In this document: piece after piece, positions 31,007 to 36,857 of the stretch | Layout: each line of letters opens with the position of its first letter | How positions within the stretch are numbered: the first letter of the stretch is position 1 | Source of the DNA: Streptomyces canus | GTDB lineage: Bacteria > Actinomycetota > Actinomycetes > Streptomycetales > Streptomycetaceae | DNA: 64,000 bases | Direction: 5' to 3' | Assembly: GCF_030816965.1 (NCBI RefSeq) | Contig: NZ_JAUSYQ010000002.1 | Span: 9,662,001 to 9,726,000 of the forward strand | The notes under the pieces: model-generated | The model's input: the letters and a program-made list of their open reading frames with translations, nothing else | What the model was told of the DNA's origin: nothing | The model's database searches: none | Position numbers and translations under genes: made by a program

Positions 31007-32773
31007 ATGGCCTCGTCGCTGGAGAAACCGCTCGACCACCGCTATCGGGGCGAACACCCGATACGCACACTCGCCTACCTGTTCCGCGCCGACCGCCGCC
31101 GACTGGCCGCGGCCGCCACGGTGTTCACCGTCAAGCACAGCCCGGTGTGGCTGCTGCCCCTGATCACGGCGTCCATCATCGACACCGTCGTCCAGCACCA
31201 GCCGATCTCCCGGCTCTGGACGAGCACGGGCGTCATCCTGTTCATCCTGCTGGTCAACTACCCCCTGCATCTCCTCTACGTCCGCCTCCTGTACGGCAGC
31301 GTCCGCCGCATGGGCACCACCCTGCGCTCCGCCCTGTGCACCCGCATGCAGCAGCTGTCCATCGGCTACCACTCACGGGTCAGCGCCGGTGTGCTGCAGG
31401 CGAAGGTGGTGCGGGACGTCGAGACCGTCGAACAGATGGTGCAGCAGACCGCGGAGACCGGCCTCGGCGCGATCACCGTGCTCGTCGGCGGCCTCGTCAT
31501 CATCGCCGTAAGGACACCGGAGTTCGTGCCGGTCTTCCTCGTCGTCGTGCCCGCCGCCGCCCTCGTCGTGGCTCGCCTCAGGGCCCGGCTGCGCACCCAC
31601 AACGAACACTTCCGGCACGAGGTCGAGACCCTGTCGTCCCGCGTCACGGAGATGACCCGCCTCATCCCGGTCACCCGCGCCCACGGCCTGGAGGGCAAGG
31701 CACTGCGCCGCATGGACGGCACCCTGCGCCGCCTGCTCACCTCCGGAATGCGTCTCGACCTGGTCAACGGGCGCTTCGGCTCGCTGGCCTGGGTCGTCCT
31801 CAACGTGGTCGGCGTGCTCGTTCTCGCCGCGGCCGCGCTGGTGTCGTACTACGGCGTCTGGGGCGTCACCCCCGGCGACGTCGTGATGCTCAGCGCGTTC
31901 CTGACCACGCTCACCAACTCCACGACAACGTTGGCGGGACTGGCCCCGGTCATCACCAAGGGCCTGGAGTCCGTCCGTTCCGTCGGTGAGGTGCTCCAGG
32001 CGCCCGAGCTGGAGGACAACGAGGGCAAGGCCCAGGTCGATTCGGTGCGCGGGGCCGTCGAATTCCAAGGCGTGGGCCACGCGTACGACAACGGGCGGCC
32101 CGCCGTGCGGGACTTCACCCTCTCCGTCACCCCCGGCGAGACCATCGCCCTGGTCGGCGCGTCAGGCGCAGGCAAGTCCACCGTCCTGAACCTCGTCATC
32201 GGTTTCATCCGGCCCACCTCGGGACGGCTGCTGCTCGACGGGACCGACATGAACACCCTCGACCTGCGCACCTACCGGCGGTTCGTGTCCGTCGTGCCGC
32301 AGGAGTCCATCCTCTTCGACGGCACGATCCGGGATAACGTCGCCTACGGCATGGACGACGCGGACGAGGAAACGGTACGGGCGGCGCTTCGCGACGCGAA
32401 CGCACTGGAGTTCGTGGACCGGCTGCCGCAGGGCCTCGACACCCTGGTCGGCGAGCGCGGCGCCCGGCTGTCCGGCGGGCAGCGCCAGCGACTGGCCATC
32501 GCCCGGGCCCTGATCCGTGATCCGCGGGTCCTGGTCCTCGACGAGGCGACCTCGGCCCTGGACACCCGCTCCGAGGCGCTCGTCCAGCAGGCGCTCGCCC
32601 GGCTGCTGCACGGACGCACGACGTTCGTGGTCGCGCACCGGCTGTCGACCGTGCGGGGCGCCGATCGCATCGTGGTGATGGGGGAGGGCCGGATCCTGGA
32701 GACCGGCACCCACGAGGAACTCCTGCGCCGCGGCGGGGCCTACACCGCGCTGCACGCCGGACAGGTCGCCTGA
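31007..32773 (+). CDS. ABC transporter, fused permease and ATPase (half transporter)
   Basis: The 588-residue protein has six membrane segments (residues about 35-310) and a C-terminal nucleotide-binding domain. Walker A GASGAGKS is near residue 384, the signature LSGGQRQR near 489, Walker B VLVLDEATSALD near 509, and an H-loop in FVVAHRLSTVRGADR. This is a complete type I exporter half that would dimerise. ATG 31007 has GGGAGG upstream with 10-base spacing; earlier in-frame starts give a low-sense arginine-rich N-terminus. It stands alone, without a partner half. Substrate is unknown. Confidence 0.93.
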   Translation: MASSLEKPLDHRYRGEHPIRTLAYLFRADRRRLAAAATVFTVKHSPVWLLPLITASIIDTVVQHQPISRLWTSTGVILFILLVNYPLHLLYVRLLYGSVRRMGTTLRSALCTRMQQLSIGYHSRVSAGVLQAKVVRDVETVEQMVQQTAETGLGAITVLVGGLVIIAVRTPEFVPVFLVVVPAAALVVARLRARLRTHNEHFRHEVETLSSRVTEMTRLIPVTRAHGLEGKALRRMDGTLRRLLTSGMRLDLVNGRFGSLAWVVLNVVGVLVLAAAALVSYYGVWGVTPGDVVMLSAFLTTLTNSTTTLAGLAPVITKGLESVRSVGEVLQAPELEDNEGKAQVDSVRGAVEFQGVGHAYDNGRPAVRDFTLSVTPGETIALVGASGAGKSTVLNLVIGFIRPTSGRLLLDGTDMNTLDLRTYRRFVSVVPQESILFDGTIRDNVAYGMDDADEETVRAALRDANALEFVDRLPQGLDTLVGERGARLSGGQRQRLAIARALIRDPRVLVLDEATSALDTRSEALVQQALARLLHGRTTFVVAHRLSTVRGADRIVVMGEGRILETGTHEELLRRGGAYTALHAGQVA

Positions 32774-35319: not shown

Positions 35320-35535
35320 GTGTTCCAGGATTCCCCCATCTACGACCGACTCGTCGCCGAGCGCGGCGACGTCCCGGCTCTAGCCCGCAGGGAGGCCGAG
35401 CGCGTACGCAGGGAACTGGAGTACGTCATGCGGCCACTGCAGTCCCTCATGCCCCCGCCCGTCCCCGAACGCCCTGCCTCGCCCGGTCAGGGATGGGTCC
35501 CGGCCCTACCCCCCGCCGCCCCGCGGTCCTACTGA
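35320..35535 (+). CDS. small conserved hypothetical protein
   Basis: The 71-residue protein starts at GTG 35320 (MFQDSPIYDRLVAERGDVP) and continues in a helix, ARREAERVRRELEYVMRPLQ, then a Pro-rich tail. Third-position bias supports coding. A plausible -10, TAGACT, lies at 35261-35266. It ends 7 bases before the convergent ATP-grasp gene. I do not recognise a functional family. Confidence 0.6.
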   Translation: MFQDSPIYDRLVAERGDVPALARREAERVRRELEYVMRPLQSLMPPPVPERPASPGQGWVPALPPAAPRSY

Positions 35536-35542
35536 CCCGGAC

Positions 35543-36517
35543 TCAGGACACGGTGGTGTTCGCCCCGTTGGCGCGGGAGCGCGGATCCGGACCGGGCCTG
35601 GCCAGCCACTCGGCGATGCTGCGCGCGATCGGCTGGCCCGTCTCCACCTCGACGAAGCCGAACTGTCCCGACTGGTTGCACTCCAGGAACCACCAGGTCC
35701 CGTCCCCGTCCTCGGCGAAGTCGAAGGCGCCGTATGCCAGTTCGGCCGCCCCGAGATAGTCCCGGACGGCCGCGGCCACCCGCGGCGGGACATCGGTGGG
35801 CTGCCAGGAGGAGGTGGGCGGGGCGAAACGGACGTCCACCTCGTCATCGGCGCCGGTGAGCTTCCGGGCGGCCAGCATGGTCTCGCCCACGACGGTCAGG
35901 CGTATGTCGGCCCGTTTGGCGACCCGCCGTTGCAGCAGCGTGGGGCCGAACGCGACAGCCGAGAAGTCGGTGTCCGGTGCGACCCGGCTGGTCGGCACCG
36001 CCCGCGGCGGGTCCTGCGGGTGTGCGCCGGAGACCGGCTTGACCACCAGGTCGGGATAGCGCTCGGCGAACTCACGGGCGGCCTGCGGGAACGTCGTCAC
36101 GATCGTGGCCGGGACGGGCAGCCCGCAGCGCTGGGCGAGCCGTAGCTGCCAGGGCTTGTGACGGGCCCGGCGGGCCGCGTCGGGGTGGTTCATCCAGCGG
36201 GCGTCGCTGCCCCGGAGCATGCCGTACAGCGCCTGGGCGGACTCCTCGGTCAGCCACTCCGAGGGCGAGGCCGCCCGCGCCGCGGGGGTGCCCGGGCGGC
36301 GCACCCAGATCGAGCGCAGCCCGGAGATGCCCACCAGACGGCCGCCGGCCGACAGGTGGCCGCGGAAGGTGCCGTGCACGTACTCCCCGGACAGTGCGAC
36401 ACCGTCGGTCAGGTCGGCCGGGTCGAGCCGGACCACCGGTACCCCCGTGGCGTTGAGGTGCACGACGACCATGTCGGCCGTCACGTCCTCTTCGCAGGTA
36501 AGAATCAACACGGTCAT
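35543..36517 (-). CDS. tgmB: ATP-grasp ribosomal peptide maturase
   Basis: The 324-residue protein begins MTVLILTCEEDVTADMVVVHLN with a pre-ATP-grasp domain. The ATP-grasp ligase core includes RHKPWQLRLAQRCGLPVPATIVT, DLVVKPVSGA, DIRLTVVGETMLAARK and the metal-binding GDGTWWFLECNQSGQF (Glu and Asn). It belongs to the MvdC/MvdD/TgmB-type ligases, which use ATP to join hydroxyl or amine side chains to Asp/Glu side chains as ester or amide links in graspetide RiPPs. The precursor gene lies 17 bases upstream on the same strand. No partner methyltransferase or exporter was found nearby. Confidence 0.9.
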   Translation of the reverse strand: MTVLILTCEEDVTADMVVVHLNATGVPVVRLDPADLTDGVALSGEYVHGTFRGHLSAGGRLVGISGLRSIWVRRPGTPAARAASPSEWLTEESAQALYGMLRGSDARWMNHPDAARRARHKPWQLRLAQRCGLPVPATIVTTFPQAAREFAERYPDLVVKPVSGAHPQDPPRAVPTSRVAPDTDFSAVAFGPTLLQRRVAKRADIRLTVVGETMLAARKLTGADDEVDVRFAPPTSSWQPTDVPPRVAAAVRDYLGAAELAYGAFDFAEDGDGTWWFLECNQSGQFGFVEVETGQPIARSIAEWLARPGPDPRSRANGANTTVS

Positions 36518-36534
36518 CGGTCGGTGACCTGTGT

Positions 36535-36726
36535 TCAGTCGTCGAAGTGAGTCTTGGAGCCCGCCGTGGAGGTGGTGGTCCCCAGTTCCCTCATCAGCGC
36601 GTGGTCGCGGGCCGCGACCCGGCCGTCCATGAGCACGTTCAACTGCAGCCCGGAGTCGTAGACATACGGAGTGGTCGCCTCCAACGTCGCTGCCGGACGT
36701 GCGTAGTTGAGCGCGAACGGTTGCAT
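36535..36726 (-). CDS. tgmA: ATP-grasp-modified RiPP precursor peptide
   Basis: The 63-residue peptide reads MQPFALNYARPAATLEATTP, a leader ending YVYDSGLQLNVLMDGR, then a C-terminal core GTTTSTAGSKTHFDD. This is the pattern of the Streptomyces putative ATP-grasp-modified RiPP family: conserved PF-x-L-x-YARP, an LNVL motif and a Thr/Ser-rich tail ending in two Asp. The Thr/Ser/Lys donors (residues 50-60) and Asp62, Asp63 are the likely side chains joined by the ligase encoded downstream. ATG 36726 has GAGGGAGAG upstream. Confidence 0.9.
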   Translation of the reverse strand: MQPFALNYARPAATLEATTPYVYDSGLQLNVLMDGRVAARDHALMRELGTTTSTAGSKTHFDD

Positions 36727-36857
36727 CGTCTCTCCCTCGCCGGTACTGCCTCTCGCAGACGGCCTCTCCCCACGACGCCGTCAGGTCAGCCGACTTCCTT
36801 CGGCTTCCAGAGACTTATACGAATCGAACGAGTGATTGGTTTCCTCACACTGCGTAA

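Follow-up and report, generated by a model that had tools for sequence, protein, structure and literature searches.

What does a precursor-and-ligase gene pair in Streptomyces canus make, and of what use is the product to its maker? The pair, tgmA and tgmB, lies in a stretch of 64,000 nucleotides of contig NZ_JAUSYQ010000002.1 (positions 9,662,001 to 9,726,000), hereafter the window. We consider it very likely that the two genes form a prunipeptin-type graspetide cluster, in which TgmB would link Asp62 and Asp63 of the precursor into a bicyclic peptide, and that this product is conserved. The parts are as follows:

36535..36726, stop codon included, minus strand: tgmA, 63-residue graspetide precursor (PF14404 and TIGR04186 above cut-off)
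35543..36517, minus strand: tgmB, 324-residue ATP-grasp ligase (graspetide synthetase; TIGR04187 above cut-off, match to 9bou_A)
36538..36582, minus strand: core GTTTSTAGSKTHFDD, precursor residues 49-63 (from the sequence; identical in S. prunicolor locus L209; core pN/pS, the ratio of nonsynonymous to synonymous differences per site, 0.055)

The gene pair and its product

Both frames are intact, and 17 bases separate tgmA from tgmB on the minus strand. The precursor matches PF14404 ('Strep_pep') over 63 of 63 positions with 128.5 bits (E 1e-37, cut-off 25), and TIGR04186 ('putative ATP-grasp-modified RiPP') with 47.8 bits (cut-off 25), while the ligase reaches 389.4 bits against TIGR04187 ('ATP-grasp ribosomal peptide maturase', cut-off 350). 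Because precursor and ligase both pass curated family cut-offs, their pairing is not a matter of chance, and the locus has what a graspetide cluster consists of, a family precursor with an ATP-grasp peptide ligase beside it. The original prediction had called the two genes a graspetide precursor and ligase and proposed a profile search of both families, which now bears it out; the coordinates, lengths, 17-base gap, core GTTTSTAGSKTHFDD and terminal Asp62 and Asp63 that it gave are all correct. Among known structures, PDB chain 9bou_A matches the ligase best (565.6 bits over residues 1-312), other ATP-grasp ligases scoring far lower; our literature search found no paper naming 9BOU, and a search of the PDB with the precursor gave no match. 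Protein databases hold 227 relatives of the precursor, and those of the best 120 that bear an NCBI name are entered as Streptomyces 'putative ATP-grasp-modified RiPP', apart from two labelled hypothetical.

The closest link to a described compound comes from S. prunicolor NBRC 13075. Its locus L209 carries the same pair, with all 15 core residues identical, 161 of 192 bases identical between the precursor genes, and ligases that are 82% identical. That strain has three TIGR04187 ligases above cut-off, one of which (L215) occupies the place of L209. The other two (L214 and L216) are accompanied by TIGR04188 proteins above cut-off and by other precursors, and tblastn found no TIGR04188 relative in the 13 kb of L209. 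A title in the reference list of PMC13097080 describes prunipeptin, from S. prunicolor, as a 'novel bicyclic peptide', and a passage of PMC11888242 places the compound among the graspetides as BGC0002725, in a cluster family of which 3,572 of 3,589 members are in Streptomyces. We infer that L209, the only one of the three ligase loci free of TIGR04188, corresponds to the published cluster, and with it the window strongly appears to encode the prunipeptin core. The published cluster reportedly consists of just two genes, whose product contains one ester and one amide. That the product is largely undescribed, as originally supposed, can thus not be upheld for this core: the source of prunipeptin has the same 15 residues, and the precursor family is named as already in Pfam in an excerpt of PMC8939145.

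A nearly fixed core

Of the loci recognised by a pattern that itself fixes ten core residues, 213 are distinct over 900 bases; between them they have 164 different leaders but only 9 cores. A looser pattern yielded 247 loci, 246 of them intact (duplicates included), with 11 cores. They came from two draws, both of which favour close relatives: ligase similarity, which is blind to the precursor, gave 80, and the PF14404 profile gave 167. In the first draw, 79 of 80 have exactly this core and one has Ala at core position 1; in the second, 166 of 167 are intact and 97 have the exact core, the remaining locus, L240, being out of frame. Likewise, the best 120 of the 227 database relatives have 120 different leaders but just 3 cores. 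In contrast, 30 precursors with other leaders, which topped a TIGR04186 search of the genus, end in 28 different stretches of 15 residues, the final 15 being compared here in place of a delimited core. As such, by sequence comparison the core is unusually fixed across Streptomyces against the varied cores of other TIGR04186 precursors.

In random pairs from 210 precursors and 207 ligases, pN/pS amounts to 0.055 in the core, 0.43 in the leader and 0.55 in the first 300 ligase codons. Since the synonymous component (pS) is 0.44-0.45 in all three, the low value in the core points to strong selection on the peptide itself. Given the near fixation of the core across Streptomyces, the product is likely to serve its producer in some conserved way.

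The gene is patchily distributed: of 246 Streptomyces genomes, 133 have PF14404 above cut-off and 113 below it; in an overlapping, order-wide sample it is above cut-off in 144 of 293 genomes, with matches in two of nine genera. Seven weak matches in frames of 639-689 amino acids (L241-L247, six under cut-off) were taken as chance; two read by eye (L241 and L246) look like serine/threonine kinases with PASTA-like repeats.

Upstream block

A second conserved element stands before tgmA:

36814..36849, minus strand: conserved promoter-like block GAGGAAACCA ... CGTTCGATTCGTATAAG, 36 bases, about 90 bases before the tgmA start

Its consensus in most loci is GTRAGGAAACCA-WYCACnCGTTCGATTCGTATAAG; loci L278-L292 are further examples. 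The 12-mer GTTCGATTCGTA occurs in 140 of the 213 distinct loci; as it served as the selection word, its own invariance is uninformative, and the flanks are nearly fixed. The distance from block to start codon is 88-91 bases in 122 of these 140 loci and 29-32 in 10. Within three mismatches of a 26-base pattern, the S. canus genome holds a single site, the one before tgmA. A similar pattern found 15 sites in 15 of 61 genomes, against none for the reversed control, and all 15 lie just before a PF14404 gene, coordinates being compared by hand. Since 20 of the 37 Streptomyces among these genomes have the gene, five have it without the block, and several block-less loci carry other conserved upstream sequence.

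The block may function as a promoter, with TATAAG as a candidate -10 box. We found no linked regulator. A regulator of the WhiJ/BldB type was considered and rejected, as the block is unlike the one published site compared, that of WhiJ9, which a passage of PMC10294661 describes as direct repeats of CGXXCTCAAC. Separately, an imperfect palindrome (GTRATG, 3-5 bases, reverse complement) precedes the gene with 11 or 12 of 12 matches in 30 of 83 loci, versus one of 83 shuffled sequences; its consensus was chosen after viewing the sequences and each was given one simple shuffle, so that the palindrome is suggestive only.

Neighbourhood and the two-gene layout

Two further features of the window concern us here:

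31049-32770, plus strand: ABC exporter (Pfam), 2.8 kb beyond tgmB on the opposite strand
35320-35535, plus strand: 71-residue protein with weak, sub-threshold DUF6643 similarity, converging on tgmB

Nine frames at 31.0-40.3 kb of the window were compared with Pfam. They include this exporter, a DUF1232 protein, an AraC/DJ-1 regulator, a DUF5133 protein and a membrane protein with sub-threshold similarity to DUF2269, and none belongs to a methyltransferase or protease family. Moreover, tblastn found no relative of the graspetide methyltransferase TIGR04188 in the whole window or in any of 180 related loci, the positive controls L001 and L216 both being matched. It had been proposed that no methyltransferase, protease or exporter lies nearby: this holds for the first two among the nine frames, and for the exporter within the transcription unit but not in the wider neighbourhood.

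The same proposal regarded the two-gene layout as unusual, and the comparison across Streptomyces that it recommended shows the layout to be ordinary. An open frame of at least 240 codons begins 4-35 bases past the precursor in 232 of 233 core-pattern loci (duplicates included). Neighbour clustering of the 145 distinct loci with enough flank found no family consistently linked besides tgmA and tgmB, although gene calling was crude (tgmA called in 72 of 145, tgmB in 134), so that short partners could escape. The commonest family, in 58 loci, begins about 3 kb upstream, and the immediate neighbours vary by group. Two-gene graspetide clusters are known elsewhere too, since groups 27, 28 and 35 are described as synthetase and precursor only in a passage of PMC13097080.

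The DUF6643-like protein belongs to a family that supplies the adjacent gene, at most 150 bases off, in 45 of 123 loci with Lys at core position 10; this recurrence probably reflects shared ancestry of the neighbourhood. Elsewhere, the S. canus genome has a second graspetide cluster, of graspimiditide type (L001/L265, G000:C2:4789234-4790402; TIGR04188 436.7 bits, cut-off 380). It also has a divergent ATP-grasp ligase (L003, G000:C2:10420009-10420770) that stays under the TIGR04187 cut-off at 160.2 bits, beside a frame resembling, by eye, a reverse transcriptase fragment.

What the peptide may be for

Could the product be an ordinary secreted weapon or a protease inhibitor, as microviridins and plesiocin are, with the core fixed by a fixed outside target? 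The patchy occurrence in the genus is as expected for accessory weapons, and the exporter 2.8 kb away in the window belongs to a family that recurs in 43 of the 145 loci. On the other hand, none of the exporter, protease or immunity families is linked in a majority of these loci, and the other TIGR04186 cores of the genus vary while this one hardly does. We hold this explanation to be possible, yet somewhat unlikely.

A conserved role for the producer might also be directed at the producer itself. Tentatively, and with a good deal of doubt, we suggest a genus-wide, self-directed graspetide of fixed core, with its own promoter block and an unlinked regulator, that would either signal or inhibit some conserved protein of its own maker, often in two isoforms where a genome has two copies. 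Twenty-five genomes have two PF14404 matches, and both cores could be read in 19 of them. Fourteen of the 19 pair a core with Lys at position 10 with one with Gln or Ala there (second copies are, e.g., L112, L119, L130, L133 and L293), which suggests two isoforms in one organism. As a general rule such pairing is ruled out by the other five, of which three combine Lys10 with Lys10, one Gln10 with Gln10, and one a K6A10 core with Q10.

If the invariance means what it suggests, a single cyclic peptide, hardly altered in sequence, is retained by roughly half of the Streptomyces species sampled, and an orphan compound becomes a tractable question, namely what use a conserved graspetide is to its maker. 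For telling which ring matters, the naturally occurring variants (Lys to Gln or Ala, Thr to Lys) would provide a ready series. Three features merit following up, namely the fixed core, the variants of its lysine, and a promoter-like block that is private to the gene; we met no discussion of them in the parts of the literature searched, outside which lie the main mining papers, Lee 2020 and Ramesh 2021, and we make no claim that they are unpublished.

Which residues may be joined

Graspetide synthetases phosphorylate a carboxylate, which is then attacked by a Ser, Thr or Lys side chain, as stated in a passage of PMC13097080. The core offers two acceptor-type Asp residues and several potential donors. 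All 246 intact cores end in Asp-Asp, the pattern that retrieved them being limited to Asp or Glu at these two places, and Asp62 and Asp63 are plausible predicted acceptors. Of these 246 cores, 205 have Lys at core position 10 (Lys58, the single lysine of the window's core), 24 have Gln there and 17 Ala; at core position 6 (Thr54), 239 have Thr and the other 7 have Lys. No core has Lys at both positions. On a ligase tree, where position 10 needs at least three changes and position 6 at least two, the rows with Lys6 sit among rows without Lys10; this tree has 86 rows, was made by a quick method, leaves 28 of 83 inner branches weakly supported, and represents the window ligase by L134 (97.5% identical).

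The course that we propose is as follows. From the upstream block, taken as a dedicated promoter, tgmA and tgmB would be transcribed as one unit. TgmB would recognise the conserved leader of TgmA (PFxLNYARP ... LNVLxDGR) and, with ATP, activate the side-chain carboxylates of Asp62 and Asp63, each of which would be joined to a donor side chain of the core, presumably giving two rings. As donors we would tentatively favour Lys58, through an amide, and Thr54, through an ester. Core position 6 would then act as a donor whether it is Thr or Lys, and Lys58 would be the second donor in those cores that have it; cores lacking Lys would form no amide ring. Cleavage and export, if any, would depend on genes elsewhere. 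The original prediction allowed that the peptide may remain inside the cell or use machinery from elsewhere; no protease or exporter family was consistently linked to the pair.

Other residues may be joined instead, e.g. Thr and Ser donors alone, giving two esters and leaving Lys58 free. Rival donors could be Thr51, Ser53, Ser57 and Thr59, none of which varies among 210 aligned precursors, whereas Lys58 is Lys in 180 of these. Against such a pair of esters, position 54 is always Thr or Lys, and Lys54 appears solely where Lys58 is lost (7 of 7), as fits donors, while prunipeptin reportedly contains one ester and one amide; we regard two esters as rather unlikely. Besides these invariant residues, three points weigh against a conserved, prunipeptin-type bicyclic peptide. 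In 41 of 246 loci Gln or Ala takes the place of Lys58, so that an amide at that residue would be no rule of the family. The identity of PruA with the L209 precursor is itself presumed, from the lack of TIGR04188 at that locus. Finally, the product is dispensable, since PF14404 is under cut-off in 113 of the 246 genomes.

That the pair is instead a decaying relic without product, as those absences and an out-of-frame relative might suggest, is highly improbable, given two intact frames in the window and strong selection on the peptide (core pN/pS of 0.055 at a pS of 0.44, much like the pS of 0.45 in leader and ligase). The relative concerned, L240 (G085:C75:18955-19104), goes out of frame before the core and is either a pseudogene or an assembly error.

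Comparison with known systems

By sequence, the microviridin ligases MvdC and MvdD are of the same ATP-grasp type as the window ligase. However, the latter lies far under both equivalog cut-offs (125.7 versus 425 and 109.3 versus 475 bits), too low for an assignment to either. Graspimiditide-type (group 13) clusters share the precursor superfamily TIGR04186 and the ligase subfamily TIGR04187 with the window, but carry a TIGR04188 methyltransferase, of the PIMT type, of which tblastn found no relative in the 64 kb or beside any of the 180 related pairs; furthermore, leader and core of the window precursor are unlike theirs. Compared with the prunipeptin cluster (MIBiG BGC0002725), taken as L209, the leader differs at 15 of 48 positions, the ligase is 82% identical, and no other difference is visible, core and gene order being the same. 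From the systems defined by PF14404 (Strep_pep) or TIGR04186 together with TIGR04187 (SAV_5884-type) we found no difference, the window passing all curated cut-offs. Judged by these profiles, the pair is a regular member of that graspetide family, and the cluster itself is already known.
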